A stretch of 60,934 bases of DNA. Origin: Pseudoflavonifractor phocaeensis (GTDB taxonomy: Bacteria > Bacillota > Clostridia > Oscillospirales > Oscillospiraceae). Under the pieces are notes generated by a model that was given only the letters and a program-made list of their open reading frames with translations, did no database searches and had not been told where the DNA came from. The DNA lies in assembly GCF_016901955.1 (NCBI RefSeq), contig NZ_JACJLC010000010.1, positions 1 through 60,934 on the forward strand, in the 5' to 3' direction. The translations under genes and the position numbers were made by a program. Below are positions 9,764 to 60,934 of the stretch, piece by piece; position 1 is the stretch's first letter, and the number at the start of each line of letters is the position of its first letter.

Positions 9764-9779
9764 GAGGGGAGGCTGTTTT

Positions 9780-10649: not shown

Positions 10650-10665
10650 CCTTCAGACAAACAAT

Positions 10666-10703: not shown

Positions 10704-10717
10704 GTTTATTTTGTGCC

Positions 10718-13087
10718 TTAATGTTTGGGCCTGAGCCGGATGCCCAGGGCGAAGAGGACCGCGGCGGCCCCCAGCAGGACCAGCAAGCAGGGCCAGAGGC
10801 CCCGGGAGGCCTGAAGGGCCAGGCCGGGTGGGGTGAGCAGGGACACCCCCAGCAGCGCGGGGGAGAGTTGGGACAGGTCCAGGAAGCAGCCGCCGAGCAG
10901 ACACAGGATCAGGGCAAGGAAGGGAGCCAGCCCGTCGATCCGTCCATCCGTCTGGGTGACCCGGATAAGGGCCAGAGCCAGAGCAGAGACGCAAACGGCA
11001 TAGGCGATGGCGGCGCAGATAGCCCACAGGCCGGTGCCGCCGCCGCGGACCATGACGGCCAGGGAGGTCAGCAGGCCCAGGGCGGTAAGGGCCAGACAAT
11101 CGCTGCCGTAGGAAAGGGCCCGGCCAAAGGGGAGGGCCCACATGCGCCGCTCCACCAGACGGCCGTCCCGTCCGCCGGTCCAGGCGGCGGCAGTGAGGAG
11201 GGTGAACAGGACCATCAGCGCCGCAAAGCTGAGCTGGCTGGGGACAAAGGGAAGGGGGGCCTGGGCGCCGCTTTGGGTCTGCTGGTAGTACAGCGGGGGC
11301 ATGGAGGCCTCGGTCTCATCCATCAGCGCCTGGAGCCTGGCGGATTCCGCGGCGGTCAGGGAGCGGCCCAAATGAACCTGGGCGTCCCACTCTGCCCGGG
11401 CCCGGCTGCGCTGAACGGAGACCTGGCCGGCCACGATCTCCCGGGCGCCCTGGAGGGAGACCGCGGCGGCCGCCCCTTCGTAGCGCAAGGGAATCTGTCC
11501 GTCATCGGACAGGGCTTGCCCGTAGCCCTCCCCGATGGTGAGCAGGCCCTCCACCTCGCCCAGCAGGAGCAGGTAGCGCCCCTCCTCCGGGCCACAGAGC
11601 TGCAGGGAGAGTTCGGCGCGCCCGGTCAGCCGCTGGAGCAGTTCCTGGGAAGCGGCGCTTTGATCCAGATCGCACACCGCCAGGCAGAGCTGCTGCCTGC
11701 CGCCTGTCTGGACGGAGGCGGCGGCGCTCCCGCACAGTGCGGCCACTGCCAGCAAAGCGATAAGGCCACGCCACCCGCCTGCCATGGCTCTCAGCTTAAA
11801 GGCGGACAGGCCGGCGAGCCTGGACAAGAAAGCGTGCGGTCTGACGCTGAACTGTGGGCGTTCTCCAGCAACGGGCTCGGAGGATTCCACATGGGAGGAG
11901 ATGACCGGGCGTCCTGACCGGGAGGCCCGATTCAGAGCCAGGAGAGCGGCCAGAAGCCCGGCAACACCCATGACCGGCAGGGGCCAGAGCAGGCCGGGCA
12001 GCTCCTCCCATCCCAGCCCTGCCGCTCCGGCTTCCAGACCCAGAGAGGCATAATAGGGCAGGGTGAACTTTCCCAGCAGGGCCAGGGGTTTGGTCAGGAG
12101 ATGACGGGACCACAGAGTCCCGCCCAGCACCAGGGACAGGAAGAGGAGAAGGTTGCCCCAACGCTGCACCGAGGAGGGATCCCTTAGCCAGGCTGCCAGC
12201 CCCAGCAGCAGACCGAAGGCCGCGACCAGCAGGAGCAGGGCCAGCGCCAGAAACAGGAGCGGGGCCGCCGGGCGAAAGACGGCCAACATCAGAATCAGAG
12301 TAGGAAGAGTCAGCAGACAGGCCACAAGGAATTTGGAGCAGATAAAGGCTGCCATGGAGCCGCCCAGGGCCCTGTACCGGGGCAGTACGCCCAGACCCAG
12401 CTCCTCCGGAAGTGTCTTGACGGCGGAGATAGAGAAAAACAGAGCCAGCACCGACAGGACACAGGCGGCCGGCCTGCGCTCCAGGGCGCCCTGGAGATCC
12501 GTCTGTACAGCCTCATTTTCAAAGACGCCCTGACGGCCCAGAGCATCCTGGAGCAGGTTTACAGAGGCCTCATTGTAGAGGGCTTGCTGCTGCTCTTGGG
12601 AAAGGGTTCCGTAGCACAGCTTGTAGACAGCGGAGGAGGCCACCTGATTACCCCGGATAATATCCATTACTGAGCGAAAGATGGAGGAGATCAGGGCGGA
12701 TTCCAGGGGCATATCCTCATTCAGAATAATGGACACAGGGCAGTCTGTCATGGTGTAGAGGTCGTAGAAAAAATCTTTGGGAATGGTGATGACCGCCGCC
12801 GCCCCTTCCTGGAGGGCTTGCAGGTCATCGGACTCCTCTTCCAGGACAGTCACCTGGGAAAACAGCTCGATCCGCCGCATCTGGGCCAGCAGGGAGCGGG
12901 ACATGACGGTGTCGTCCTCATCCCGCACCGCGATAGGGAAGGGCTGTACATAGCTCTGGGTGGTCAAATCCCCCAGGCCCAGCCAAAGGGCCAGCAGCAG
13001 CACAAAGGGCAGGAGCAGGGCGGCAGCGCCGGAGCCGCTGAGAAACAGCTTCAGATCCTTATAGAGGGCGGCTTTCAATCCGGACAT
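10718..13087 (-). CDS. Double-length ABC-2 type permease
   Basis: 789 residues, about twice the usual ABC-2 permease. The N-terminal half (1 to about 400) has one helix near residue 25, an extracytoplasmic loop and a cluster of about five helices. The second half (about 420-789) repeats the plan: basic segment, helix near 440, extracytoplasmic loop (about 460-600), then five to six helices. This looks like two permease units fused in one chain, giving a complete transporter with the ATPase encoded just upstream (13-bp overlap). The substrate is unknown; ABC-2 exporters carry drugs, lipids, polysaccharides or peptides. Confidence 0.78.
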   Translation of the reverse strand: MSGLKAALYKDLKLFLSGSGAAALLLPFVLLLALWLGLGDLTTQSYVQPFPIAVRDEDDTVMSRSLLAQMRRIELFSQVTVLEEESDDLQALQEGAAAVITIPKDFFYDLYTMTDCPVSIILNEDMPLESALISSIFRSVMDIIRGNQVASSAVYKLCYGTLSQEQQQALYNEASVNLLQDALGRQGVFENEAVQTDLQGALERRPAACVLSVLALFFSISAVKTLPEELGLGVLPRYRALGGSMAAFICSKFLVACLLTLPTLILMLAVFRPAAPLLFLALALLLLVAAFGLLLGLAAWLRDPSSVQRWGNLLLFLSLVLGGTLWSRHLLTKPLALLGKFTLPYYASLGLEAGAAGLGWEELPGLLWPLPVMGVAGLLAALLALNRASRSGRPVISSHVESSEPVAGERPQFSVRPHAFLSRLAGLSAFKLRAMAGGWRGLIALLAVAALCGSAAASVQTGGRQQLCLAVCDLDQSAASQELLQRLTGRAELSLQLCGPEEGRYLLLLGEVEGLLTIGEGYGQALSDDGQIPLRYEGAAAAVSLQGAREIVAGQVSVQRSRARAEWDAQVHLGRSLTAAESARLQALMDETEASMPPLYYQQTQSGAQAPLPFVPSQLSFAALMVLFTLLTAAAWTGGRDGRLVERRMWALPFGRALSYGSDCLALTALGLLTSLAVMVRGGGTGLWAICAAIAYAVCVSALALALIRVTQTDGRIDGLAPFLALILCLLGGCFLDLSQLSPALLGVSLLTPPGLALQASRGLWPCLLVLLGAAAVLFALGIRLRPKH

Positions 13088-13737
13088 GGGGTTCCCTCCT
13101 CCGGTATGGGGCGACCCGCCTGAAGGGTGAGGACACGGTCACAGACCCGCTCCAGCTCGCCGGGCTGATGGGAGATCAGGGCAATGGCACATCCCATATC
13201 CCGCAGATGTTCCACCATGGACAGGATCAGCTCCACCGACCGGGCGTCCGCCCCCACGGTGGGCTCATCCAGCAGCAGGACCCTGGGAGTGATCATCAGG
13301 GCTGTGGCCAGGTGTAAACGGCGGCGCATGCCGCCCGAGTAGGAGGAGACCGGCTGCCTGCCCTTTTCGCTCAGGTCCAGCCGCTCCAGAAGCCAGCGGC
13401 TGCGGGTGGAAATGGCTCTGGGGGGCAGCCCGCAGGCCAGCCCCCAGAACCGCAGGTTTTCCAGGCCGGTGAGGGTATGGTAGAGAGAGAGTTCCTGGGG
13501 AACGTAGGCCACCTTGCCCACCGCCTGGGGGGCCAGCACATACTGGCCGGCATCGGGACGGAGCACCCCGGCCAATATGGCCAGGAGAGTGCTTTTTCCG
13601 GCGCCGTTGGAGCCCTTGATCCCCAGCACCTCGCCCTGAGCCAGAGTCAGCGAAAGGGGGCCCAGGGCGGGGACAGTGAGGCCCGGATACCGTTTCTCCA
13701 CCTGCCGCAGAGTACACAGTACAGGATTACCAGCCAT
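13075..13737 (-). CDS. ABC transporter ATP-binding protein
   Basis: 220 residues with all ATPase motifs: Walker A GSNGAGKST (42-50), Q-loop in VPQELSL, signature SYSGGMRRRL, Walker B VLLLDEPT, and the switch His in LISHQ. The compact size and downstream ABC-2 permease mark it as the motor of an exporter. It overlaps the gene before it by 11 bp and the gene after it by 13 bp, so the three genes form one translationally coupled operon. Confidence 0.95.
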   Translation of the reverse strand: MAGNPVLCTLRQVEKRYPGLTVPALGPLSLTLAQGEVLGIKGSNGAGKSTLLAILAGVLRPDAGQYVLAPQAVGKVAYVPQELSLYHTLTGLENLRFWGLACGLPPRAISTRSRWLLERLDLSEKGRQPVSSYSGGMRRRLHLATALMITPRVLLLDEPTVGADARSVELILSMVEHLRDMGCAIALISHQPGELERVCDRVLTLQAGRPIPEEGTPCPD

Positions 13738-15466
13738 AGCTGCTGTAGATCAGAGGCTCCAGGTTGCGGATCAGATCCTGATAGACGGCGTCGCCCAGCT
13801 CCTGGAACAGGGCGCCGTACTCATCATAGCTGTAGCTGCTGATGTCCTGGGGCAAGACGGCGGGGGCCTTTACGGAAGAGGTCTCGGTGGCGTCGATGGT
13901 CACGGTCAGGCTGCCGAAGGTGCCGCCGACGTAGCTGGGGTCGATCTGGAGCCGGAGGGTGTGCTCTACGCTCCCCCGGCCGGTGTCCGCCACCTCCAGG
14001 GAGAGACTGCCTGAGATCTGGTCGCTGTAGATCCGGAAAGAGCCCTGGGGGATGCCCAGAGGAGATTTCTTGCCGGTGTCCATGTCGTAGCTCAGGCCGA
14101 ACACGTTGCCATAGGGGACGGTAACGTCCAGGGTGCCGTTGGAGGCGGTCCCCTTTTTGGTGTAGGTGTGATTGACGGACAGCTGCGTCTCGCCATAGGC
14201 GGTGACGTAAAAGGCCTCTTCCCGGCCGTCGGCCTCCCGGCCCAGACATTCATAGGCCACCACACTGTCAGACTGACTGGTGTACAGCTGGATCATACGG
14301 ACCTCCCCGCCCTCCAGATAGAGGTCCCAGGTAAAGCCGGATTCTTCCACCTGTCGGCCGATATCAGCGGCATATCGCTCCAGTTCATCCGCCAGGCTCA
14401 GCAGAGCGTCGTCCAGCTGGGCCTCCAGGTCATACCCCTGGAAGATATCGGGACCAAAGGCCTCGGTAAGCATGTCGGGATTGACCACCTTCAGGATGAG
14501 TTCCCGCAGGTTATCGTCCTCCCGCAGGGACTGGGCCAGGGTGCGCAGCATACGTTCCACATCCTCAGCCTTGGGCTGGAAGCGGTACCGGGTCCCTTTG
14601 CACTCCTCTCCCAGGTGGGAGAGATAGAAGAAGACGTCCTTATCCACGGTCACATTCTCCTCGGTGACCACCGCGCACACCAGATCCAGATAGGACTGGA
14701 TCAGGGAACGCCACTCCTTGCCCGAGAGCTGGGGCAGGGTCAGACCGCTCAGGTCCACCTCCTGACCAGAGACGGTCCGGATGGTATCGGACAAATCCAG
14801 GGTATAATAGGTATCCTGGATCTCGGGCAAGTAGAAACTCGCTCTGCCCTGGTCGTAGGACAGATAGCCGGAGAGGATGGGGCTGCCCATCAGGGTGAGG
14901 GACGCGTCGGCCTGGAAGGAGTTCTGGTCCAGATCCAGTTTCAGCCCGATGGAGGAATCCCGCAGGTACTCGTTGATGACGCTGCTGTCCGTATTGGCGG
15001 TGATGGTCAGGTCAGAGGAGAACTGGCCGGTGCCGAAGGTGTCCACCCCTTCTTCAAACGCGGCCAGGGCCCGGTCCAGGAACAGCTCCTGCTGGCGGGA
15101 TACAAATTGCTTGGCAGGGGACTGGAAGAGAGACGGGATCACCAGCACACCTGCTACCACCGCCGCCACAGCCGCGGCGGCAACGATGCCGATGGTGATC
15201 TTGCGTTTGCGGGCCTTGGGGTCCACCGGGGGCTTCTCCGCCGTTTGGACTTTCGACGGAGAAGGGGCCTGGGGGGTGGAGACCTGATGGACGGGGGTTC
15301 CGCAGTTGACGCAGAAGGCAGAGTCCGGAGGCAGTCTTTCCCCGCAATTGATGCAGAATATGGACTCCTTGTCCGGCGCGGGCTGATTGGCCAGGGTCGT
15401 ACCGCACTTTAGGCAAAAGGTGTCGGCATCTTGGGCCTGACGGCCACAGTTGGGACAGATTTTCAT
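13727..15466 (-). CDS. Zinc-ribbon membrane-anchored protein with large extracytoplasmic domain
   Basis: 579 residues from the ATG six bases after AGGGAGGA. Two N-terminal zinc ribbons, each with paired C-x2-C knuckles (CPNCG/CLKCG and CINCG/CVNCG), are followed by a basic patch (KARKRK), one transmembrane helix (about 88-110) and some 470 residues probably outside the cell. The layout resembles the TcaA/YvbJ-type zinc-ribbon membrane proteins of Firmicutes, but the outer domain is not one I recognise. It is the first gene of the ABC operon, so it may sense a ligand for the transporter or act with it (inference). Confidence 0.75.
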   Translation of the reverse strand: MKICPNCGRQAQDADTFCLKCGTTLANQPAPDKESIFCINCGERLPPDSAFCVNCGTPVHQVSTPQAPSPSKVQTAEKPPVDPKARKRKITIGIVAAAAVAAVVAGVLVIPSLFQSPAKQFVSRQQELFLDRALAAFEEGVDTFGTGQFSSDLTITANTDSSVINEYLRDSSIGLKLDLDQNSFQADASLTLMGSPILSGYLSYDQGRASFYLPEIQDTYYTLDLSDTIRTVSGQEVDLSGLTLPQLSGKEWRSLIQSYLDLVCAVVTEENVTVDKDVFFYLSHLGEECKGTRYRFQPKAEDVERMLRTLAQSLREDDNLRELILKVVNPDMLTEAFGPDIFQGYDLEAQLDDALLSLADELERYAADIGRQVEESGFTWDLYLEGGEVRMIQLYTSQSDSVVAYECLGREADGREEAFYVTAYGETQLSVNHTYTKKGTASNGTLDVTVPYGNVFGLSYDMDTGKKSPLGIPQGSFRIYSDQISGSLSLEVADTGRGSVEHTLRLQIDPSYVGGTFGSLTVTIDATETSSVKAPAVLPQDISSYSYDEYGALFQELGDAVYQDLIRNLEPLIYSSYGW

Positions 15467-42035: not shown

Positions 42036-45824
<3,789 letters not shown>

Positions 45825-45846
45825 ATTTCTGCGCGTCCTCCCTTAG

Positions 45847-49557
<3,711 letters not shown>

Positions 49558-49711
49558 CGTAGAAAAAACACCTCGATTTCAATGTCTGGAGCCGATCCCG
49601 CCAGGGGAAGGCCCCGATTTGGCCTGCTGCTTTCCGTCAAATCATACAAATAGGGGTGGGAACGGCTGGGACGAACTCCCGGCCGCGTTGATAAAATATC
49701 CTGATTTCCTC

Positions 49712-49740
49712 TTGCGCTTTTGCCTGTCCTGTGTTACACT
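49712..49740 (+). promoter_or_regulatory. Candidate promoter of the sigma-54 activator gene
   Basis: TTGCGC, 17 bp, TACACT on the plus strand, lying inside the rpoB leader. It would give a leader of about 140 nt that contains the hairpin at 49837. Confidence 0.55.
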
Positions 49741-49793
49741 ATCTCCAGCGTAATATGGGATGGTAGGCGCAGTTTGGAAAATAAGAGCATTTA

Positions 49794-49823
49794 AGTATAC
49801 CATGCCGCCGCTGTGAAAGTCAA
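49794..49823 (-). promoter_or_regulatory. Sigma-A promoter of rpoBC
   Basis: Minus-strand TTGACT and TATACT with an 18-bp spacer, giving a leader of about 230 nt before rpoB. Confidence 0.75.
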
Positions 49824-49836
49824 CCATAACCATGCG

Positions 49837-49860
49837 AAAATCTGGAGCGATCCAGATTTT
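49837..49860 (+). terminator. Terminator-like hairpin in the leader of the sigma-54 activator gene
   Basis: AAAATCTGGA / TCCAGATTTT around GCGA, followed by TTTCTTT. It ends only 10 bases before the AGGGGGG ribosome-binding site, so it is placed to attenuate the gene. A very short frame ATGCCGCCGCTGTGA (MPPL) lies 20 bases before it. Confidence 0.7.
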
Positions 49861-49884
49861 TTTCTTTATCAGGGGGGATCGGGT

Positions 49885-51225
49885 ATGTGGAAGCCCTTTC
49901 TGGAGCAGCTGGGCGAGATCATCCGGGTGTGCGAGGACACCGACGGGGTGCTGCTGGCCAACAGGGACGGCATCGTGGAGTTCCAGCGGATCTTTGTGGA
50001 CAAGCTGTGGCAGTCCGGTGAGACGGTGGGCAAGCACATCTTTGACCTCTACCCCGAGCTGGACGAGGAGAGCAGCACCATCCTCCAGGCCCTGAAAACG
50101 GGCAAGCCTACCTTTAATGTATTGCAGGACATCAACAACCGCCGGGGGGAGCGGGTGCTGCTGGAGTCCACCACCCTGCCCATCGTGGTGGACGACCAGG
50201 TGGTGGGGGTGATGGACTCCTCCAAGTTCCACGTCATCGACCAGCGGATCATCCGGGGGGAGATGGGGGTGTCCACCCTGGACCGGATCATTACCCAGGA
50301 CCCGGCCATGCTGGCCCTGAAGGCCCGCATCCGGGACGCGGCCAAGCTGGACTCTACTGTGCTCATCTATGGGGAGACCGGCACCGGCAAGGAGCTGGTG
50401 GCCGAGTCCCTCCACAGCGAGGGCCGCCGGGCGGACAAGCCCTTCGTGTCCCAGAACTGTGCCGCTATCCCGGCCAACCTGCTGGAGAGCCTGTTCTTTG
50501 GTACCGAGAAAGGGTGCTATACCGGCGCCCTCACCCGAAAGGGCCTGCTGGAGGAGGCTGACGGAGGCACCCTCTTCCTGGACGAGATCAACTCCATGGA
50601 GATCAATCTCCAGGCCAAATTATTAAAGGTATTGGAGGAGAAGAAGGTGCGCCGGCTGGGGGGCAGCCGGGATATCCCCTTTGACGTGCGTATCGTGGCA
50701 GCGGTGAACGAGGAGCCCGCCAAGCTCATCCGGGAAAAGAGGATGCGGGAGGATCTGTATTATCGCCTGGGGGTGGTACGCCTCACCCTGCCGCCCCTGC
50801 GGGAGCGGCCGGGGGACATCCCCCTGCTGGCCCGGTTCTTCCTGGACCGGTTCAACCGGGAGATGGACCGGCGGCTGGAGGGGATCAGCGACCTGGCCCT
50901 CCGGCGGATGGAGCAGTACAGCTGGCCGGGCAACGTGCGGGAGCTGCAGAACGTGGTGGAGGGGGCCTTCTCTGCCTCCCGGTCCGGCTTGCTGACGGCG
51001 GAATATCTGGAGGAGCGGCTGAGGCTGCCCCTCCGGCAGGCGGAGGACAGCCCGGAGCCGGTTCAGCTGGAGGAGGGGTTCTCCCTGCCCCGGGCGGTGG
51101 AGCGGTACGAGCGGGAGCTGGTGCGCCAGGCCCTGGAGCAGTCCACCTCTCTGTCCCAGGCTGCCCGGCTGCTGGGGATCTCCCGGCAGAACCTGAAGTA
51201 CAAGATGCAAAAATTTTTGCTGTAA
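49885..51225 (+). CDS. Sigma-54-dependent PAS-domain transcriptional activator
   Basis: 446 residues from the ATG seven bases after AGGGGGG. A PAS-like sensor (about 5-120) is followed by the AAA+ domain (about 133-365) with Walker A GETGTGKE (163-170) and Walker B GGTLFLDE. The sigma-54 contact loop reads GCYTGA in place of the usual GAFTGA. A C-terminal Fis-type HTH (AARLLGISRQNLKYKMQKF) completes the RocR-like layout. The last codons overlap the first of three palindromes that are probably its own binding sites. It should switch on the amidohydrolase operon in response to a small molecule. Confidence 0.95.
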   Translation: MWKPFLEQLGEIIRVCEDTDGVLLANRDGIVEFQRIFVDKLWQSGETVGKHIFDLYPELDEESSTILQALKTGKPTFNVLQDINNRRGERVLLESTTLPIVVDDQVVGVMDSSKFHVIDQRIIRGEMGVSTLDRIITQDPAMLALKARIRDAAKLDSTVLIYGETGTGKELVAESLHSEGRRADKPFVSQNCAAIPANLLESLFFGTEKGCYTGALTRKGLLEEADGGTLFLDEINSMEINLQAKLLKVLEEKKVRRLGGSRDIPFDVRIVAAVNEEPAKLIREKRMREDLYYRLGVVRLTLPPLRERPGDIPLLARFFLDRFNREMDRRLEGISDLALRRMEQYSWPGNVRELQNVVEGAFSASRSGLLTAEYLEERLRLPLRQAEDSPEPVQLEEGFSLPRAVERYERELVRQALEQSTSLSQAARLLGISRQNLKYKMQKFLL

Positions 51226-51253
51226 AAAATTTTGCCGGTGCAAAAAATTTTGC
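51207..51253 (+). promoter_or_regulatory. Three tandem palindromic upstream activating sites
   Basis: GCAAAAATTTTTGC (51207-51220, perfect), GTAAAAAATTTTGC (51222-51235) and GCAAAAAATTTTGC (51240-51253). They lie 110-160 bp before the -24/-12 promoter, the normal enhancer distance for a sigma-54 activator, and directly follow or overlap the regulator gene. Confidence 0.8.
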
Positions 51254-51275
51254 CTCCCATCGGGAGGCATTGTGT

Positions 51276-51341
51276 GCGCCAGACCGCGCCCGCGCAGGGG
51301 ACCGGAGCCCGCCGGCCCTTATGCCCCAGGCGGTCTGGCGC
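51276..51341 (+). terminator. Terminator of the activator gene
   Basis: 11-bp stem GCGCCAGACCG / CGGTCTGGCGC with a 44-base loop and six following T residues. It insulates the operon from the regulator transcript. Confidence 0.85.
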
Positions 51342-51363
51342 TTTTTTGTGGAGAGCGGGCAGG

Positions 51364-51380
51364 TTGGCACGGCCTTTGCA
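51364..51380 (+). promoter_or_regulatory. Sigma-54 (-24/-12) promoter
   Basis: TTGGCACGGCCTTTGCA matches the consensus TGGCAC-N5-TTGCA, with GG and GC exactly 10 bp apart. It lies about 40 bp before the first gene of the amidohydrolase operon. Confidence 0.93.
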
Positions 51381-51418
51381 TTTGAATTTAGACAAATCAA
51401 ACAAACGAGGAAAGGAAG

Positions 51419-53008
51419 ATGGATATGAGGGTCCTGCGTTACAACGGCATTGTCACCTCCATGGACAGCGCCATGACCCGCTATGAGGCCATCGGCACCG
51501 AGGAGGGCAAGATTGTCTTTCTGGGCTCCAGCCGGGAGGGCCTGGCCCAGAGCTGGGATCAGACCACAGACCTGGGCGGGGCCATGGTGCTGCCCGGCTT
51601 CAACGACACCCACATGCACCTGCTCCACTACGCTATGTTCCGCCGGAACGTGCCCCTCTTCGGGGTCAAGACCATTGATGAGGTGGTGGACCGCTGCAAG
51701 GCCCGGATCCAGGCGGAGCGCCCGGACTACCTCATTGGCATGGGTTGGAACCAGGAGACCATGGAGGAGGGTCGGCTGCTGACCCGGGCGGACATGGACC
51801 GGATCTCCACTGATATCCCGGTGTGCATGCTGCGCACCTGCATCCACATTGCCGCCTGCAACTCGGTAATGCTGGAGCGTATCCGGGCGCTGAAAGATGT
51901 GGATCCGGAGGTGATGGCCCTGGTGGACTTTGAGAAGGGAATCCTCCGGGAGAATGCTGCCCGGCTGTACATGGACGTGCTGCCCCAGGCTGACGACGCC
52001 TATGTGCGCCAGCTCATCACCGAGGGCCAGCGGGCCCTCAACGCCGCCGGCATCACCTGCGTCCACTCCGACGACCTGATGGCCATTGCCGGCATGGATC
52101 CCATCCGACTTATCGGTATCTTTCGGGAGATGGAGGCCGACAGGGCCTTGACAGTGCGGGTTTACGAGCAGTGCCTGGTGGAGCCGGAGGACTTCGAGCG
52201 ACTCAAGGGGGTGCGCAGCGATCCCGCCGACCGCACCAGCTTTTTCCGTACCGGCCCCCGCAAGCTGCTCCAGGACGGCTCCCTGGGGGCCAAGTCTGCC
52301 GAGATGGTGGACGGTTATGTGGACGACCGGGACAACCACGGCATCCCCATTTACACCGAGGAGGAGCTGCTCCGCCGGGTGAAAGCCGCCCACGACGCCC
52401 ACATGGACGTGGCGGTCCACGCCATCGGAGATCTGGCCCTGAAAAAGGTGTGCGACGCGGTGGAGGGGGCGGAGCAGGCAAACCCCTGGCCGGATCATCG
52501 CCACGGCATCGTCCACGCCCAGACCACCACCCCTGCTCTGCTGGATCGGATGAAGGCTCTGGGGCTCCAGGCCTATATCCAGCCCATCTTCATCGACGCC
52601 GATATGAACATCATCGCCCAGCGGGTGGGGGAGGAGCATGCAAAGGATTGCTATAACTGGAAGGCAATGGAGGATTTGGGCCTCCGGGTCAGCGGCGGCT
52701 CCGACTGCCCGGTGGAGCCCTTCGACGTGCTGGACAACATGCGCTCCGCCATCACCCGGCAGAACCGGGCGGGGGACAAGACCTACCTGCCGGAGCAGGC
52801 CCTCACTGTGGAGCAGGCGGTGCGGTTGTTCACCTCCGACGCCGCCTGGCCCAGCCGGGACGAGGGGGTCCGGGGCACCCTGGAGCTGGGCCGTCAGGCT
52901 GACCTGGTGGTATTGGATCAGGACCTGTTTGCCATTGACCCCGCGACCTTCCCTCAGGTGAAGGTACTGGAGACCGTGCTCAACGGGATCACTGTGTATC
53001 ATGCGTAA
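51419..53008 (+). CDS. YtcJ-like metal-dependent amidohydrolase
   Basis: 529 residues. Amidohydrolase fold with the first metal motif HMH (GFNDTHMHL, about residue 64), further ligands in AVHAIGD and GIVHAQ, and the Asp of SGGSDCPVEP. The C-terminal strand region (GTLELGRQADLVVLDQDLF) closes the composite beta sandwich. An ATG six bases later is an equally good start. Substrate unknown; the group hydrolyses amides of small molecules. First gene of the sigma-54 operon and so part of an inducible catabolic path (inference). Confidence 0.92.
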   Translation: MDMRVLRYNGIVTSMDSAMTRYEAIGTEEGKIVFLGSSREGLAQSWDQTTDLGGAMVLPGFNDTHMHLLHYAMFRRNVPLFGVKTIDEVVDRCKARIQAERPDYLIGMGWNQETMEEGRLLTRADMDRISTDIPVCMLRTCIHIAACNSVMLERIRALKDVDPEVMALVDFEKGILRENAARLYMDVLPQADDAYVRQLITEGQRALNAAGITCVHSDDLMAIAGMDPIRLIGIFREMEADRALTVRVYEQCLVEPEDFERLKGVRSDPADRTSFFRTGPRKLLQDGSLGAKSAEMVDGYVDDRDNHGIPIYTEEELLRRVKAAHDAHMDVAVHAIGDLALKKVCDAVEGAEQANPWPDHRHGIVHAQTTTPALLDRMKALGLQAYIQPIFIDADMNIIAQRVGEEHAKDCYNWKAMEDLGLRVSGGSDCPVEPFDVLDNMRSAITRQNRAGDKTYLPEQALTVEQAVRLFTSDAAWPSRDEGVRGTLELGRQADLVVLDQDLFAIDPATFPQVKVLETVLNGITVYHA

Positions 53009-53046
53009 CGCGGGCCGCCGCGAACCATAGAAAGGAGCGTTTTTCT

Positions 53047-54273
53047 ATGAACCAGATGCTGGAGAAGGCCAAAGCCATCCAGGAGCAGATCATCGCCCAC
53101 CGGCGGTGCCTGCACCAGATCCCCGAAGTGGGCGTGTACACCCCCAAAACGGCGGAGTACGTGAAGGGGCAGCTGAAGGAGATGGGGATCCCCTGCCGGG
53201 ACTGCGGGGTCCACTCCCAGGAGGACCGGGAGAAGATGGTGTTCGCCGGCTACCCCGACGCCCCTACCTCCACCGGCGTGGTGGGCCTCATCGGCAAGGG
53301 GGAAGGACCCTGCATCCTGCTGCGGGCCGATATGGACGGCCTGCCTATGGAGGAGACCACCGGCCTGGACTTTGCCGCCAAAGGGAATACCGCCCACATG
53401 TGCGGCCACGACGCCCACGCCGCCATGCTGCTGGGCGCGGCCCGCATCCTCAAGGACATGGAGGATCAGCTCCCCGGCACGGTAAAGCTCATGTTCCAGC
53501 CCGGCGAGGAGATGGGCTACGGCTCCCGCACCATGGTGGAGGACGGCCTGCTGGAGAATCCGAAGGTGGACGCCGCCATGGCCCTGCACGTGGGGCCCCA
53601 GGTGGAAGTGGGCAAGCTGGACTATTCTCCCGGCGTGGCCTCCGGCGCCATGGCCACCTTTATCGTCAGCATCCAGGGCCGGGGCGGCCACTCCTCCGAG
53701 CCGCAGAAGACGGTGGACCCGGTGAACATTGCCACCCAGGTGTGCTCCGCCCTGAACATGCTCATCCCCCGGGAGGTGGACCCGGAGGCCTTCGCCACCA
53801 TGACGGTGGGCGCCCTCAACGGCGGCCACGCCTCCAACATCATCCCCGACACCGCGGAGATCATGGTCTCCTTCCGCACCCTGAGCCCTGAGGCCTACGA
53901 CCACCTGATCGAGCGCATCCCCGAAATTCTGGACCACTACGTGGCGGCCTGGCACGGCAGCTACACCACCCGGGTGCTCAAGACCCCCAGCACCGTGTGC
54001 GACCAGACCTTCTCCGAGGAGCTGGTCCCCTTCGTGGAGGAGATCCTGGGCCAGGGCAACGTCAAGCCCGTGCCTCCCATGAAGGGGGCCGAGGACTTCG
54101 GCCACGTGACCCGGCTGGTGCCCGGCTTCTACGCCTTCATGGGCGCCGGCGCCCCCGACCACTACCCCCTGCACAACCCCAACATGGTGCTGGACGAGAG
54201 CGCCTTCCCCCTGGGCTCCGCCATCCTGGCCAACTGCGCCGTGGAGTGGCTGAAGAAACACGCCGGTAAGTAA
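53047..54273 (+). CDS. M20 family amidohydrolase (N-acyl amino acid hydrolase type)
   Basis: 408 residues. Metal-site motifs of the M20D group: ADMDGLPMEE, MCGHDAHAAMLLGAA, FQPGEEMGYG, the dimerisation domain starting GRGGHSSEPQ, and KGAEDFGH near the C-terminus. Such enzymes remove acyl groups from amino acids (hippurate, acetyl-diaminopimelate, aminobenzoyl-glutamate). AAAGGAG precedes the ATG, 38 bp after the amidohydrolase gene. Two hydrolases and a carrier suggest stepwise use of an acylated amino acid. Confidence 0.93.
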   Translation: MNQMLEKAKAIQEQIIAHRRCLHQIPEVGVYTPKTAEYVKGQLKEMGIPCRDCGVHSQEDREKMVFAGYPDAPTSTGVVGLIGKGEGPCILLRADMDGLPMEETTGLDFAAKGNTAHMCGHDAHAAMLLGAARILKDMEDQLPGTVKLMFQPGEEMGYGSRTMVEDGLLENPKVDAAMALHVGPQVEVGKLDYSPGVASGAMATFIVSIQGRGGHSSEPQKTVDPVNIATQVCSALNMLIPREVDPEAFATMTVGALNGGHASNIIPDTAEIMVSFRTLSPEAYDHLIERIPEILDHYVAAWHGSYTTRVLKTPSTVCDQTFSEELVPFVEEILGQGNVKPVPPMKGAEDFGHVTRLVPGFYAFMGAGAPDHYPLHNPNMVLDESAFPLGSAILANCAVEWLKKHAGK

Positions 54274-54280
54274 CCACCCC

Positions 54281-54295
54281 TCCGGCTCCGCCGGA
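54281..54295 (+). repeat. Small hairpin with triplet loop
   Basis: TCCGGC-TCC-GCCGGA between the hydrolase and transporter genes. Same design as the hairpins at 6.3, 18.9 and 19.0 kb. Confidence 0.4.
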
Positions 54296-54320
54296 AACAC
54301 GCAAGAGGAGGTTTTTGAGA

Positions 54321-55715
54321 ATGGGAAACACACTGGAAAAGAAGAAAAGAGGCTTTAGTCTGCCCCACGTGTACATCGTCATCCTGATTCTGATGCTCAT
54401 CATCACCGCGATGACCTACATCATCCCCGCCGGCACCTACGCCCGGGACGCCGTCACCGGCGCCGTGGACCCCGACAACTTCACCTATATCGACCAGACC
54501 CCTGTGGGCTTTCTGCAGTTCTTCACTTCGCTGCATCAGGGCATCGTGGAGAGCTCCAACATCATCGGCTCCGTGCTGCTGATCAGCGGCTGCATCCAGA
54601 TCATCAACATGACCGGCGCCTTCTCCGCCGGCATCCAGGCCCTGATCCAGAAGACCAACGGCAAGGGCATCATCATGGTGGTGCTGTTCTTCACCCTGTT
54701 CGTTGGCCTGGGCGTCATCGGCTACCTGGACGCGCTGTATCCCTTCTACCCCATTATCATCTCCCTGTTCATCACCCTGGGCTATGATAAGATGGTGGGC
54801 ACCGCGGTCATCCTGCTGTCCACCGCCGTGGGCTTCACCTGCGGCATGGTCAACCCCTACACCACCGGCGTGGCCCAGACTCTGGTGGGCCTGCCCATGT
54901 ACTCCGGCATCGGCTTCCGCGCCGTGGGCCTGGTGGTGTTCTATGTCATCGCCCTGTTCTTCCTGCTGCGCTACTGCATCCAGATCAAAAAGGACCCCAA
55001 GAACAGCATCATGGGCGAGAACTATCTGGAGGAGCAGACCGCTCCCATGGAGTTTGAGAAGGGCCTGGTCTTTGACGGCAAGCGGGTGGTCCTCATCGTC
55101 CTCTTCCTGGCCACCGTGCTGCTCACCGTGGTGGGCTCCCTCCAGTGGAAGTGGGGCCTGCCGGAGATCGCCGCCATCTACTTCCCCGTGACCATCATCG
55201 GCGTCATCCTCTTCAGGATCAACCCCTCCCAGGCCTGCGTGGAGTTCGGCAAGGGCATGGCGGGCACCATCGCCCCCACCATGGTCATCGGCTTCAGCCG
55301 GGCGGTGTCCGTGCTCCTCACCGAGGGCAACATCACCGACACCATCATCCACGCCGTCTCCGGCGTGCTGGAGGGCAAGAGCCCCGTTATCACCCTGCTC
55401 ATCATCTTCCTGTTCGTCACCGGCTTCAACTTCTTCGTGGCCTCCGGCAGCGGCAAGGCCGTGGTCATGATGCCCATCCTCCAGCCCCTGGGCCAGGTGC
55501 TGGGCATCAACCAGCAGGTGCTGGTGCTGGCCTACCAGTACGGCGACGGCTTCACCAACACCTTCTGGCCCACCGCCGCTCTGCTGCAGCTCTCCCTGTG
55601 CGGCATGGACTACGGCCGCTGGTTCAAGTTCGCCTGGAAGGTCTACGCCTGCCTGATCGCCTCCGGCTTCATCCTGATCGTCATCGCCAACGCCATCGGC
55701 TACGGGCCCTTCTGA
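54321..55715 (+). CDS. YfcC family membrane carrier
   Basis: 464 residues with about 12 helices. Typical YfcC/ArcD-related features: YIVILILMLIITAMTYIIPAG at the N-terminus with GAYAR-like end, SSNIIGSVLLISG, GYLDALYPFYPI, VNPYTTGVAQTLVGLP and GFNFFVASGSGKAV. Members carry basic amino acids, C4-dicarboxylates or peptide-like anions. The ATG lies nine bases after AGAGGAGG. It is the last gene of the sigma-54 operon and probably imports the substrate of the two hydrolases. Confidence 0.9.
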   Translation: MGNTLEKKKRGFSLPHVYIVILILMLIITAMTYIIPAGTYARDAVTGAVDPDNFTYIDQTPVGFLQFFTSLHQGIVESSNIIGSVLLISGCIQIINMTGAFSAGIQALIQKTNGKGIIMVVLFFTLFVGLGVIGYLDALYPFYPIIISLFITLGYDKMVGTAVILLSTAVGFTCGMVNPYTTGVAQTLVGLPMYSGIGFRAVGLVVFYVIALFFLLRYCIQIKKDPKNSIMGENYLEEQTAPMEFEKGLVFDGKRVVLIVLFLATVLLTVVGSLQWKWGLPEIAAIYFPVTIIGVILFRINPSQACVEFGKGMAGTIAPTMVIGFSRAVSVLLTEGNITDTIIHAVSGVLEGKSPVITLLIIFLFVTGFNFFVASGSGKAVVMMPILQPLGQVLGINQQVLVLAYQYGDGFTNTFWPTAALLQLSLCGMDYGRWFKFAWKVYACLIASGFILIVIANAIGYGPF

Positions 55716-55732
55716 TTTCCTCCCGACTCCCC

Positions 55733-55771
55733 CCGGAAGGGCGGTCCGCTCCGTGCGGGCCGCCCTTCCGG
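55733..55771 (+). terminator. Terminator of the sigma-54 operon
   Basis: 16-bp stem CCGGAAGGGCGGTCCG with one mismatch in the complement and a seven-base loop. The T-tract is poor (CATTCC). Confidence 0.7.
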
Positions 55772-55823
55772 CATTCCGACGGGGAAAAGGCGGAAAAGCC
55801 TTGGAAATCCAGTGATTTTCTGA

Positions 55824-55852
55824 TTGACTTCCCTTTTGGGGTATGATATAAT
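55824..55852 (+). promoter_or_regulatory. Sigma-A promoter of the str operon
   Basis: TTGACT, 17 bp, TATAAT, about 80 bp before the L7Ae-like gene. Confidence 0.9.
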
Positions 55853-55938
55853 CCGGAATTGCGCAGGTGTGCCTGCCAGGGCCGAACAGAGGAGAAAAGT
55901 TCCTGATTTGGCCCATGAGACCGGAAGGAGGCGTCCTG

Positions 55939-56181
55939 ATGTTGACGGCGCTGAAGCAAGGACCAAGGGTGGTCGGCGTCAAGCAGACCAAAAGAGCCAT
56001 CAACGACGGGAAAGCCGCCTGTGTCTACCTGGCGGGCGACGCCGATCCCAGAGTGACCGCCCCGGTGGAGACCCTGTGCGCGGAAAAGGGGATCCCCGTG
56101 GAACGGGTGGCCCAGATGAAGGAACTGGGCTCCGCCTGCGGCATCGCCGTGGGCAGCGCGGTGGCCGCGCTGCTCCATTGA
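55939..56181 (+). CDS. L7Ae-like ribosomal protein (YbxF type)
   Basis: 80 residues, preceded by GGAAGGAGG. L7Ae/L30e fold with GVKQTKRAINDGKAACVYLAGDADP and a C-terminal MKELGSACGIAVGSA. Bacillus YbxF and YlxQ of this family bind K-turn RNA. It is the normal neighbour of rpsL, but here rpoC is not upstream of it. Confidence 0.93.
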   Translation: MLTALKQGPRVVGVKQTKRAINDGKAACVYLAGDADPRVTAPVETLCAEKGIPVERVAQMKELGSACGIAVGSAVAALLH

Positions 56182-56186
56182 TCTGG

Positions 56187-56221
56187 TTTTAACGGTATAA
56201 TTTTTGATTATCCCGTTAAAA
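56187..56221 (+). other. Hairpin between the L7Ae-like gene and rpsL
   Basis: TTTTAACGG pairs with CCGTTAAAA, and ATAAT with ATTAT inside. It may be a processing or regulatory structure in the leader of rpsL. Confidence 0.45.
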
Positions 56222-56255
56222 TATAAGTCTCAGAATCATAGAAAGGAGGAAAACC

Positions 56256-56678
56256 ATGCCTACGTTTAACCAGCTCGTGCGTAAGGGACGGGAAGCCGTG
56301 ACCTACAAGTCCAACTCCCCCGCCATGCAGAAGGGCCTGAACACCCTGAAGAACCGTGAGACCGACCTGCCTTCTCCCCAGAAGAGAGGTGTGTGCACCG
56401 CTGTTCGTACCTCCACCCCGAAGAAGCCTAACTCCGCCCTGCGGAAGATCGCCCGTGTGCGTCTGACCAACGGCTACGAGGTTACCGCTTATATTCCCGG
56501 TGTGGGCCACAACCTGCAGGAGCACTCCGTGGTTATGATCCGCGGCGGCCGTGTCAAGGACCTGCCCGGCGTTCGTTACCACATCATCCGCGGCACTCTG
56601 GATGCCCAGGGCGTTGCCAACCGGATGCAGGCCCGTTCCAAGTACGGCGCCAAGCGGCCCAAGGCCGGCAAGAAGTAA
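56256..56678 (+). CDS. rpsL: 30S ribosomal protein S12
   Basis: 140 residues. The decoding-centre segments are intact: [10 protein letters not shown] with Lys at the position of streptomycin-resistance mutations, and [23 protein letters not shown] precedes the ATG. Nothing here suggests streptomycin resistance. Confidence 0.98.
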
Positions 56679-56738
56679 TTTCAAGGAAATTATTTCTCAA
56701 CCATCTGAATGAATCAACGCGCGTCAAGCGCAAGGCAG

Positions 56739-56768
56739 TTGTCCTTGCAAAAAGCGCTTTCCTATATA
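56739..56768 (+). promoter_or_regulatory. Weak candidate promoter before rpsG
   Basis: TTGTCC and TATATA with an 18-bp spacer in the unusually long (200-bp) rpsL-rpsG gap. The gap may instead hold an S7 autoregulatory structure. Confidence 0.35.
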
Positions 56769-56878
56769 GATAGGGGCGTTTTCTGTGGGGCACTGGACAA
56801 GCAGGCACTTGTCTTACACGGGGGCGTTCATACGCCTTCGAGTACCTATGAAATCATACTATGAAGGAGGGAAGCAAA

Positions 56879-57349
56879 GTGCCCAGAAGAGGAAACGTAC
56901 CCAAGCGGGAGGTTCTGCCCGATCCCATGTACAACTCCGTCCTGGTGACCAAGCTGGTCAACAGCATCATGCTGGACGGTAAGAAGGGCGTGGCCCAGAA
57001 GGTGGTCTACGGAGCTTTCGACATCATCAAGGAGAAGACCGACAAGGATCCCCTGGACGTGTTCACCACCGCTCTGGAGAACATCATGCCGTCCCTGGAG
57101 GTCAAGGCCCGCCGCGTGGGCGGCGCCACCTACCAGGTGCCCATCGAGGTCCGGCCCGAGCGCCGGCAGACCCTGGGTCTGCGGTGGCTGACCAACTACT
57201 CCCGCGCCCGCAGCGAGAAGACCATGAAGGAGCGCCTGGCCGGCGAGATCATGGACGCCGCCAACAACCTGGGTTCCGCCGTCAAGAAGCGTGAGGACAC
57301 CCATAAGATGGCCGAGTCCAACAAGGCCTTCGCCCACTATCGCTGGTAA
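56879..57349 (+). CDS. rpsG: 30S ribosomal protein S7
   Basis: 156 residues from a GTG seven bases after AAGGAGGG, giving the standard length and the [15 protein letters not shown] start. An ATG 18 bases upstream would overlap the ribosome-binding site. Conserved helices [15 protein letters not shown] and [11 protein letters not shown] bind 16S rRNA. fusA follows after 14 bp. Confidence 0.98.
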
Positions 57350-57363
57350 GAAGGAGTTAGAGT

Positions 57364-59469
57364 ATGCCTAGGAAAGTTACCTTAGAGAACACCAGAAACA
57401 TTGGCATCATGGCTCACATCGACGCCGGCAAGACCACCACCACCGAGCGAATCCTGTACTACACCGGTGTCAACTACAAGATCGGTGAGACCCATGACGG
57501 CACCGCCACCATGGACTGGATGGCTCAGGAGCAGGAGCGCGGCATCACCATCACCTCCGCCGCCACCACCTGCTATTGGACCGGGTCCAAGCAGCAGTTC
57601 CCCCAGACCCGTATCAACATCATCGACACCCCGGGCCACGTGGACTTCACCGTGGAGGTGGAGCGCTCCCTGCGCGTGCTGGACGGCTCCGTCACCGTCA
57701 TGTGCGCCAAGGGCGGCGTGGAGCCCCAGTCCGAGACTGTGTGGCGCCAGGCAGACCACTACAAGGTCCCCCGCATGATCTACGTCAACAAGATGGACAT
57801 CATGGGTGCCGATTTCTACAACGTGCTCAACATGATCCATGACCGGCTGAAGTGTAACGCCGTGCCCATCCAGCTGCCCATCGGCTCCGAGGATACCTTC
57901 AAGGGCATCATCGATCTGGTGGAGATGGACGCCGACATCTACTATGACGAGCTGGGCAAGGACATGCGTGTGGAGGAGATCCCCGCCGACATGATGGAGC
58001 TGGCCCAGGAGTACCGCACCAAGCTGGTGGACGCCTGCGCCGACATCGACGACGAGATCATGGAGCTGGCCCTGGAAGAGAAGCCTATCCCCGAGGAGAT
58101 GCTCCGCCGGGCTCTGCGCAAGGGCACCATTGAGAACCTGCTGGTCCCCGTGACCTGCGGCACCTCTTACCGCAACAAGGGCGTGCAGAAGCTGCTGGAC
58201 GCCATCGTGGACTTCATGCCCTCCCCCCTGGACATCCCCGCCATCAAGGGTGTGGATCCCGACACCGAGGAAGAGGACGAGCGTCCCGCCGATGACAACG
58301 CCCCCTTCTCCGCTCTGGCGTTCAAGATCATGACCGACCCCTACGTGGGCCGTCTGTCCTTCTTCCGTGTGTACTCCGGTAAGCTCACCACCGGTTCCAC
58401 CGTGCTCAACAGCACCAAGAACCAGCGGGAGCGCATGGGCCGCATCCTGCAGATGCACGCCAACCACCGGGAGGATATCGAGGAGGTCTACTCCGGCGAC
58501 ATCGCCGCCGCCGTGGGTCTGAAGAACACCACCACCGGCGACACCCTGTGCGACGACAAGGCTCCCATCATCCTGGAGTCCATGGAGTTCCCCGACCCCG
58601 TCATCCGGGTGGCCATCGAGCCCAAGACCAAGGCCGGTCAGGAGAAGATGGGCATCGCTCTGGTGAAGCTGGCCGAGGAGGATCCCACCTTCAAGACCTA
58701 CACCGACGAGGAGACCGGTCAGACCATCATCGCCGGCATGGGCGAGCTCCACCTGGAGATCATCGTGGACCGTCTGCTCCGGGAGTTCAAGGTGGAGGCC
58801 AACGTGGGCGCGCCCCAGGTGGCCTACAAGGAGACCATCAAGAAGAGCGTGGAGCAGGACACCAAGTATGCCCGTCAGTCCGGCGGTAAGGGCCAGTACG
58901 GCCATGTCCGCATCACCGTGGAGCCCAACGAGCCCGGTAAGGGCTATGAGTTCCTCAACGAGATCACCGGTGGTGTCATCCCCAAGGAGTATATCCCCGC
59001 CGTTGACGCCGGTATCCAGGGGGCCATGCAGGCCGGTATTCTGGCCGGTTATCCCGTTGTGGATGTGAAGGTCCACCTGACCTTCGGCTCCTACCACGAG
59101 GTGGACTCCTCCGAGATGGCCTTTAAGATCGCCGGTTCCATGGCCTTTAAGGAGGCCTGCCGCAAGGCCAACGCCGTGCTGCTGGAGCCTGTGATGAAGG
59201 TTTCCGTCATCGTGCCTGACGAGTACCTGGGCAACGTCATCGGCGACCTGACCAGCCGCCGCGGCATGATCCAGGGCCAGGAGAGCCGCCCCGGCGCCAC
59301 CCAGGTGGACGCCCTGGTGCCTCTGGCCAGCATGTTCGGCTACGCCACTGACCTGCGCTCCTCCACTCAGGGCCGCGGCCAGTACTCCATGGAGCCCCAC
59401 AGCTATGTGGAGATCCCCAAGAGCATTGCCGACAAGATCATTGCCGAGCGGGGCCGTAAGGAAGACTGA
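57364..59469 (+). CDS. fusA: Translation elongation factor G
   Basis: 701 residues. GTPase motifs: [12 protein letters not shown] (P loop), DTPGHVDF (G3) and NKMD (G4), followed by domains II-V with GMGELHLEI and [10 protein letters not shown]. It drives ribosomal translocation. The full fusA-length domain IV is present, so this is EF-G and not a ribosome-protection protein. Confidence 0.98.
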
Positions 59470-59558
59470 TTTTCAGCTAACCGGACGGCGGAGGGCGCCG
59501 GAAGGCCCCTCCGCACCGCCGGTGTCATTGCTTTTCCTGGAAAAGCAAAATAAAAGTG

Positions 59559-59587
59559 TTGCATTTTACCCTGCAATGCTATACAAT
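59559..59587 (+). promoter_or_regulatory. Sigma-A promoter of tuf
   Basis: TTGCAT, 17 bp, TACAAT in the 180-bp gap after fusA. A GC-rich imperfect hairpin (about 59481-59521) before it may partly end the fusA transcript. Confidence 0.7.
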
Positions 59588-59649
59588 ATTTTCGCATTTA
59601 TGTGGAAATGACTCTCACTCATTTTGAGCAATTAAGGAGGACACTTAAA

Positions 59650-60852
<1,203 letters not shown>

Positions 60853-60865
60853 TCAATACTCCCTA

Positions 60866-60897
60866 AAAGAGGACCTGCCTTGCGGCAGGTCCTCTTT
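60866..60897 (+). terminator. tuf terminator
   Basis: 14-bp perfect stem (AAAGAGGACCTGCC / GGCAGGTCCTCTTT) with loop TTGC and GTTT after it. Confidence 0.93.
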
Positions 60898-60934
60898 GTT
60901 TATAGGAGGGTGGCCGACCGAAGGAAAAGCGTTG

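Follow-up and report, generated by a model that had tools for sequence, protein, structure and literature searches.

Between rpoB and the str genes of a Flavonifractor-like genome of 3.5 Mb lies a cassette that is probably a ligand-inducible sigma-54 catabolic operon importing and splitting an amino-acid amide, and that consists of a conserved core, the activator and amidohydrolase genes, and an exchangeable module, the transporter and second hydrolase. In the window (the whole stretch of DNA analysed, 60,934 nucleotides) the activator, amidohydrolase, M20 and carrier genes are all open reading frames on the + strand (49885-55715) and are matched to families by Pfam and NCBIfam, which upholds the gene set and location given in an initial annotation of this DNA. 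The features are as follows.

49836..49864, + strand: hairpin (stem 49836-49861) and T-run immediately preceding the activator, belonging to the region upstream of rpoB
49885..51225, + strand: sigma-54 activator (bEBP), 446 aa, from Pfam/NCBIfam, fold and loop motif
51207..51220: palindrome 1, GCAAAAATTTTTGC, 14/14, overlapping the last codons of the activator
51222..51235: palindrome 2, GTAAAAAATTTTGC, 13/14, conserved in orthologous regions
51240..51253: palindrome 3, GCAAAAAATTTTGC, 14/14, conserved in orthologous regions
51276..51347, + strand: intrinsic terminator of the activator gene, stem 51276-51341 then T-run, between palindromes and promoter
51364..51380, + strand: -24/-12 sigma-54 promoter TTGGCACGGCCTTTGCA, exact match, 44 bp before the amidohydrolase start
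51425..53008, + strand: YtcJ-like metal-dependent amidohydrolase (PF07969), 527 aa, from Pfam and alignment
53047..54273, + strand: M20D hydrolase (TIGR01891), 408 aa, from NCBIfam; relatives ILL2, YxeP and N-alpha-acyl-glutamine aminoacylase
54321..55715, + strand: DcuC-family (YfcC-like) membrane carrier, 464 aa, from Pfam/NCBIfam
55733..55771, + strand: strong 3' hairpin after the operon, with no T-run, from folding and sequence

Predicted sigma-54 control of the cassette

The activator had been described as a PAS-AAA-Fis protein, and this architecture holds: a PAS-fold sensor (residues ~1-120) precedes an AAA+ domain, which carries GETGTGKE and a GCYTGA loop, and a Fis-type HTH. The latter two domains both exceed their cut-offs, as in a bEBP (Sigma54_activat, 211.6 bits, cut-off 20.2; HTH_8, 40.8 bits, cut-off 22). 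The Pfam search of the activator returned no PAS match at E<=0.001; the PAS call is nevertheless right, because residues 1-134, modelled with AlphaFold2 at a mean pLDDT of 78.4, match PDB structures of PAS domains, with 8bjp as the best hit (E 2.5e-05). At the GAFTGA-loop position, GCYTGA is found in the window and three more rows of homologues, and 28 of the 36 rows have GSYTGA; the part of PMC6615313 that treats this loop accepts variants, GSFTGA and GAYTGA among them, and does not name GCYTGA. Identity as PrdR (NF041552) was rejected at 305.6 bits against an equivalog cut-off of 795. The genomic surroundings are also those of a bEBP, with a sigma-54 gene, a -24/-12 promoter and upstream sites all present; rpoN, whose absence had been set beforehand as one of two observations that would count against the cassette's interpretation, was found in the genome.

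The description of the -24/-12 promoter as textbook is justified, as TTGGCACGGCCTTTGCA is an exact match to TTGGCACNNNNNTTGCW, one of four in the genome and the sole one within the window, and a -24/-12 element is kept in all 15 orthologous regions; with one mismatch, the same pattern has 27 genome matches versus 14 for its reversed control. The three palindromic sites reported upstream, which are AT-rich, are all present, but conservation is confined to the second and third. Palindrome 1 is complete in only two of the 15 orthologous regions (the window and L016, the closest two), palindrome 2 is found in 15/15 at a match of at least 11/14, and palindrome 3 in 15/15 at at least 12/14. When up to one mismatch is allowed, GCAAAAWWTTTTGC has three genome matches, all within 47 bp at the cassette; their number is not unusual, because a reversed control of the pattern matches two places, but their clustering within 47 bp is unusual. 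Because two palindromes and the -24/-12 element are retained in 15/15 orthologous intergenic regions, over activator identities of ~60-98%, the predicted sigma-54 regulation of the cassette is well supported.

Beyond these orthologues, 22 loci with more distant activators were scanned for the palindrome, leaving out L039, which ends at a contig edge. Two sites at 13/14 were found in L038 and single 12/14 sites in L033, L034, L043 and L052, with none in the other 17 of the 22; a -24/-12-like site, defined by a looser pattern with no chance control, adjoins the activator in 17 of these distant loci.

The statement that the cassette has its own terminators is borne out for the activator gene, whose terminator interval can be folded as a stem followed by a T-rich stretch in 15/15 regions (a permissive search with no control). 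The 3' hairpin is strong (folded stretch -47.1 kcal/mol, z -4.40) but has no T-run, and the hairpin upstream of the activator (49836-49864) belongs to the rpoB locus, outside the cassette proper. A reading of the latter as an attenuator of the cassette was dropped, since rpoB regions without the cassette also carry hairpins at the same place. The rpoB-locus terminator leaves ~20 bp before the activator start, so that a promoter outside the cassette probably drives the activator, and “self-contained”, as the cassette had been called, is too strong a term.

Conserved core and exchangeable module

Loci from 14 genomes of the genus were examined: 11 have the order activator-amidohydrolase-M20-YfcC, whereas the remaining three carry BrnQ instead of M20-YfcC (L085, L086 and L088; the BrnQ proteins of L085 and L088 are each 76% identical to that of L086, the one tested with Pfam). 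In G078, a genome of another genus, the activator and amidohydrolase are accompanied by palindromes and TTGGTACGCCGTTTGCT, and M20, YfcC and an amino-acid carrier are all missing among the neighbouring genes checked. The four-gene order does recur in relatives, but it is not a core unit. On the amidohydrolase tree, in which several forks are weakly supported, gain of M20-YfcC takes two label changes. Because the searches scored only some of the first-look candidates in each genome, further members may have been missed; in G128 it was through M20 alone that the second amidohydrolase (28%) came to light.

Further loci combine the amidohydrolase with other partners. At L067 a 61% identical amidohydrolase lies beside a family-3 binding-protein ABC system, and this locus has no activator match and no good -24/-12 site. 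Amidohydrolases of 42% (L084) and 34% (L073) identity lie beside AGCS, the former in a separate sigma-54 locus with a divergent activator and TTGGCACAAATCTTGCC before the AGCS-amidohydrolase pair. L136 is also a separate sigma-54 locus, in which an activator (45%), TTGGCACATATTTTGCT, an amidohydrolase (28%), BrnQ, M20 (55%) and YfcC (46%) follow in a row; at L137 an amidohydrolase adjoins M20-YfcC and the -24/-12 site is absent.

Enzymes, carrier and candidate substrate

The amidohydrolase is placed in the YtcJ-like family (PF07969) by its score (Amidohydro_3, 320.8 bits, cut-off 29.7, covering residues 46-525 of 527) and by six metal-ligand positions; H63, H65, K280, H332, H364, D427 and H141 are invariant in 12/12 aligned homologues. 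Its AlphaFold2 model, built with 9 close sequences, has a mean pLDDT of 36.4. The family, which is large and in its vast majority uncharacterised, includes the metalloBSH of Bilophila, a YtcJ-like enzyme that hydrolyses taurine-conjugated bile salts and has the same metal-ligand set of His, His, Lys, His, His and Asp (PMC13081902); a conserved His of metalloBSH would correspond to H141 here, as judged by order and spacing and not from an alignment. Bile-salt cleavage by the present enzyme is a reading that the shared family and the gut habitat would suit, as would several shorter YtcJ-like Bilophila enzymes, most of them without predicted secretion, that are weakly active according to PMC13081902. 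We consider it highly improbable. MetalloBSHs are described as secreted, with an extra C-terminal domain, and as occurring mainly in Desulfovibrionaceae (PMC13081902), whereas the enzyme here is cytoplasmic by inspection, no secretion signal being seen at its N-terminus; the extra domain is missing, with Amidohydro_3 reaching residue 525 of 527; and the partner carriers in the operon are of amino-acid type.

The M20 protein scores 286.1 bits against TIGR01891 (cut-off 153.75), which places it in the M20D subfamily, and among its PDB relatives are IAA-amino-acid hydrolase and N-alpha-acyl-glutamine aminoacylase. The match to M20D aminoacylases and ILR1-like hydrolases (1xmb, 1ysj, 6slf; E 2.4e-60 to 1.1e-50) is at family level; compared with these enzymes, the protein here belongs to a narrow orthologue set. 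Plasmid relatives were found in 16 records (35-39% identity among the best 10), and none of the five of these records looked at has YfcC beside the M20 gene. On a Fusobacterium plasmid brnQ lies ~2.4 kb upstream of the M20 relative, and on an Enterococcus plasmid MFS pieces adjoin it.

Two hydrolases in series would also suit a route in which the amidohydrolase opens a hydantoin, lactam or cyclic dipeptide and M20 splits the linear product, and models from the hydantoin pathway of ergothioneine use do match, weakly. The scores of these models (ErtD, 22.7 bits, cut-off 600; ErtE, 18.4, cut-off 520) led us to reject membership of either family, M20 passing the TIGR01891 cut-off instead, and three of the 14 genomes have the amidohydrolase with no M20 in the operon; such ring opening is improbable.

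As to the third gene of the operon, the description as YfcC needs amendment while those of the amidohydrolase and M20 are supported by family scores: the carrier belongs to the DcuC family (PF03606, 262 bits, cut-off 23.1) and falls below the YfcC equivalog cut-off (NF008611, 243.4 bits against 500). Its amino-acid role is putative. PMC11477304 gives YfcC as a putative antiporter of basic amino acids and treats a C. difficile operon in which a YfcC-type carrier adjoins an M20D hydrolase, as here. That pair is under a lysine riboswitch, and the passages on it in PMC11477304 mention no YtcJ-like gene, whereas the present operon has predicted sigma-54 control; riboswitch control was set aside because an Rfam search of window positions 45000-60934 gave nothing at gathering score. 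The carrier might by analogy work as an antiporter, exporting the product amino acid by basic amino acid exchange, for energy or pH control and not for nutrition, and related activators (~39-47%) do adjoin arginine-deiminase-like and Na+/H+-antiporter-family genes. We find this doubtful, given the sub-threshold YfcC score and the replacement of the carrier by BrnQ in three of 14 genomes, which points to hydrophobic amino-acid uptake.

Orthologues and relatives of the amidohydrolase adjoin four kinds of transporter: DcuC-family (the window), BrnQ, family-3 binding-protein ABC and AGCS. Because four (putatively) amino-acid transporter kinds adjoin one enzyme family, genomic context leads us to favour an amino-acid amide as substrate, although the same four kinds are also compatible with an enzyme family of several different substrates. 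Distant amidohydrolases (~33-40%), for which some of the neighbours were scanned, adjoin peptide ABC parts and lactate-permease-like, NhaC-like, HerA helicase and S-layer genes, so the context of the family is not uniform. Oligopeptide ABC parts beside some of them (L071, L072), a gamma-glutamyltransferase upstream of the L074 amidohydrolase, and M28 peptidase and family-5 solute-binding genes neighbouring related activators would fit the use of dipeptides or peptides, with both hydrolases acting as dipeptidases and the carriers taking up small peptides or exporting surplus amino acids. This is unlikely, as orthologues of at least 60% identity with an adjoining transporter pair with BrnQ, DcuC-family or family-3 ABC systems and not with peptide transporters, and the best PDB matches of M20 are aminoacylase-type.

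Our best reading remains that an amide-linked amino-acid derivative is imported and hydrolysed, and we infer the substrate class to be amino acids N-blocked by an acyl group or in some other way, which may be branched-chain where BrnQ is the carrier. The inducible pathway proposed in the initial annotation keeps the support of conserved regulatory sites and the presence of rpoN, but the four genes do not form its core unit. Under the amino-acid amide reading, the cytoplasmic PAS domain probably senses the imported substrate or product; the activator would bind the two to three palindromes behind its own gene, loop over its own terminator, and contact and open the -24/-12 promoter before the amidohydrolase. 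The YfcC-like carrier may bring in or exchange the amino-acid derivative, the amidohydrolase, with a presumed dinuclear metal centre, would make the committed amide-bond cut, the M20D enzyme would add a second amide hydrolysis in this species, and the released amino acid would feed fermentation.

Relation to known systems and significance

The cassette belongs with the known clostridial sigma-54 amino-acid operons, and its target genes are new to the published table of 39 activator groups. In the one-component regulons described by Nie et al. 2019 (PMC6615313), a PAS-AAA activator lies beside its target operon with a -24/-12 promoter and amino-acid catabolism as the theme, as here; by comparison of gene names, amidohydrolase-M20-YfcC and amidohydrolase-BrnQ targets are absent from the 39 groups of their Table 1, and the cassette thus falls outside these EBP groups by its target operon. 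XcyR (malY-pepT) is the only entry in that table whose distribution names Flavonifractor (PMC6615313). Among the papers listed in literature searches, none describes the operon in its title or listed abstract, which is weak evidence of novelty.

A broader and distinctly more tentative possibility is that sigma-54-controlled YtcJ-like amidohydrolases with an exchangeable carrier (YfcC, BrnQ or AGCS), with or without M20, form a recurring, repeatedly assembled class in Clostridia that uses N-conjugated amino acids, in which the hydrolase activity would be new to the family and the PAS activator would sense the conjugate.

For the YtcJ-like amidohydrolases (PMC13081902), the combination of orthology, conserved promoter and activator sites, and swapped transporters narrows one subgroup to amino-acid amides, and the cassette offers a ready genetic switch for trying inducers. 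Should the substrate turn out to be an N-acyl amino acid of host or microbial origin, the operon would mark that metabolism in gut commensals.

A predicted sigma-54 cassette beside rpoB

Four cassette genes and their predicted regulatory sites lie next to rpoB, as follows.

49885-51225: activator gene
51207-51220: palindrome 1
51222-51235: palindrome 2
51240-51253: palindrome 3
51364-51380: -24/-12 promoter site, exact TTGGCAC-N5-TTGCA
51425-53008: amidohydrolase gene
53047-54273: M20 hydrolase gene
54321-55715: DcuC-family (YfcC-like) carrier gene
Flank, minus strand: rpoB
Flank, plus strand: L7Ae-rpsL-rpsG-fusA-tuf, the last three being what we take these genes to be from their sequence

Among the eight loci of the genome-contig collection closest to the window, six are from Flavonifractor and the other two, including the nearest (98%), are labelled Eubacteriales/Clostridiales; the window's genome is Flavonifractor or close to that genus.

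The initial annotation described a PAS-AAA-Fis activator, and all three parts were recovered: the AAA+ sigma-54 domain and Fis HTH by Pfam, and the PAS domain by a predicted fold for the first 134 residues (mean pLDDT 78.4) whose best PDB match is the CitA PAS domain (E 2.5e-05), the Pfam PAS model giving no match in these residues. Among 36 homologues, the sigma-54-contacting loop is GCYTGA in four and GSYTGA in 28. rpoN, whose absence had been named beforehand as counting against the proposal, is present on contig C256 of the window's own genome, which holds 10 Sigma54_activat matches, six of them strong (~170 bits or more).

Conservation of the regulatory region

With at most one mismatch, GCAAAAWWTTTTGC occurs at three places in the 3.5-Mb genome, all within 51207-51253; its reversed control occurs at two places in the same 3.5 Mb, so the cluster, not the count, stands out. 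The genome holds four exact -24/-12 sites, and 27 with one mismatch against 14 for the reversed control. We compared 15 orthologous regions (the window and fetched loci L016-L023, L090, L085-L088 and L066, the last from another genus), excluding L082, L089 and L091 as repeat fetches of the same genomes. The proposed -24/-12 promoter site is present in 15/15, in 13 via a pattern beginning TTGG and by eye in L085 (CTGGCATCCCGTTTGCA) and L088 (CTGGCACGAAAATTGCT). The three palindromic sites proposed with it are all present in the window, and palindromes 2 and 3 are kept in 15/15 regions at 11/14 or better, but palindrome 1 is full in the window and L016 only; most other regions keep its left half alone, which coding sequence by itself could explain. 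The activator's terminator, whose sequence varies among species, sits between palindromes and promoter, where a permissive search run without a control could fold a stem with a T-rich stretch after it in 15/15 regions. The predicted anatomy comprises enhancer sites, a loop and a promoter.

The hairpin upstream of rpoB

The claim that the cassette has its own terminators holds for that of the activator but not for the hairpin before the activator, which also occurs in cassette-free rpoB regions. Only ~20 bp separate this terminator-like hairpin from the start of the rpoB-adjoining activator, and the activator's own promoter is therefore not evident at this site. ATCTGGAGNNATCCAGATTTTTT occurs once each in 11 of 20 genus genomes, namely the 11 with an rpoB-adjoining cassette. 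Five of six cassette-free rpoB regions (L160-L164, compared by eye) have a hairpin with a T-run at the same place, its stem identical in L164 (another genus) and changed yet paired in the other four; the sixth (L165) has a larger hairpin slightly further on. By these comparisons, the hairpin reads as part of the rpoB upstream region.

On the plus strand at 49712-49864, a promoter-like TTGCGC-17-TACACT, recognised by conservation and not picked up by the promoter scan, and a T-run hairpin enclose ~115 nt that cross the minus-strand rpoB promoter TTGACT-18-TATACT in antisense. The same layout is seen within the genus in rpoB regions that lack the cassette, and also in G078, a genome of another genus; in genome G128 the promoter-like part recurs and the hairpin differs. 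The ~115-nt element has no Rfam match and is possibly a small RNA or leader.

Modular gene content across the genus

Of 20 genus genomes, 14 have an amidohydrolase orthologue (at least 75% identity), and the remaining six are all less than 90% complete; the loci of all 14 were examined, named contigs being paired to genomes via equal coordinates. The four-gene order sought in relatives was found in 11 of these (the window, L016-L023, L090 and L087), whereas BrnQ follows the amidohydrolase in place of M20-YfcC in three (L085, L086 and L088). The cassette adjoins rpoB in 11/14; G202, G205 and G213 have no cassette gene in the ~1.5 kb upstream of rpoB and carry it elsewhere. G078 keeps the palindromes and the promoter and, among the genes checked around them, has no cassette gene besides the activator (61%) and the amidohydrolase (63%). 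The unit is modular, and M20 and YfcC seem to have travelled together, since in L087 M20 (93%) and YfcC (87%) are closer to the window than amidohydrolase (76%) and activator (61%). On the amidohydrolase tree, several of whose forks are weakly supported, two switches between the BrnQ and M20-YfcC forms have to be assumed.

Separately, the L020 carrier (13455-14843) is 95% identical to the window's 54321-55712, against 79-87% for the other nine genus carriers compared, in conflict with the 88% of the L020 amidohydrolase; the carrier gene possibly recombined between species.

Parallel loci, rarity and substrate

Window-type amidohydrolases occur in 12/200 family genomes at E 1e-60 and, own genome counted, in 7/394 order and 2/391 class genomes at 1e-110; the enzyme is rare. 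Counted likewise, M20 occurs in 7/394 at 1e-130 and 1/391 at 1e-105. Two loci of G128 are relevant. L067 has a family-3 binding protein, a permease and an ATPase (the last by sequence reading) ahead of a 61% amidohydrolase, and neither an activator match nor a good -24/-12 was found; L136 has in one row activator (45%), TTGGCACATATTTTGCT, amidohydrolase (28%), BrnQ, M20 (55%) and YfcC (46%). L084 is from another family; there, TTGGCACAAATCTTGCC precedes an AGCS carrier and an amidohydrolase (42%), and the activator, which is built differently, is oriented divergently from them. L137 pairs M20-YfcC with a divergently oriented amidohydrolase (28%), and no -24/-12 was found there. L074 (G078; 6247-7896 and ~9119-10723) carries a gamma-glutamyltransferase-like gene, scoring just below the model cut-off, and ~1.2 kb downstream a second amidohydrolase (39%).

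The predicted metal ligands of the amidohydrolase (H63, H65, K280, H332, H364 and D427), as well as H141, are invariant in 12/12 aligned homologues. These residues align with Pyrococcus structures 3igh/3icj, and we infer their probable roles from the family as described in PMC13081902. Identity as metalloBSH was rejected: the window's YtcJ-like enzyme lacks that enzyme's C-terminal-domain feature. M20 aligns with IAA-amino-acid hydrolase ILL2, YxeP and N-alpha-acyl-glutamine aminoacylase. Because four kinds of putative amino-acid transporter stand beside one enzyme family, together with an aminoacylase-type M20, the likeliest substrate would be an N-blocked amino acid, and in the BrnQ form its side chain would probably be hydrophobic; the mixed neighbourhoods of distant family amidohydrolases count against this reading.

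Place among clostridial sigma-54 systems

Nie et al. tabulate 39 groups of activators in Clostridiales (PMC6615313 Table 1). By the gene names in that table, the cassette's target content matches none of the 39, and on this basis it is probably a new addition to clostridial sigma-54 activator systems.

Elsewhere in the window's genome, contigs C268, C278 and C292 (L138, L140 and L139) carry activators with exact or one-off -24/-12 sites. Pfam assigns BKACE, HpaB-family and acetyl-CoA hydrolase/transferase genes near them, and other neighbours are presumably, from their sequence, thiolase- and acyl-CoA-dehydrogenase-like; this suggests amino-acid fermentation under sigma-54 control.

More distant activators (~39-47%) neighbour arginine-deiminase/DDAH-like, M28, Na+/H+-antiporter-family and family-5 solute-binding genes, and 17 of 22 adjoin a -24/-12-like site by a looser pattern; on these grounds, the activators of this subfamily seem to have a general role in amino-acid catabolism.
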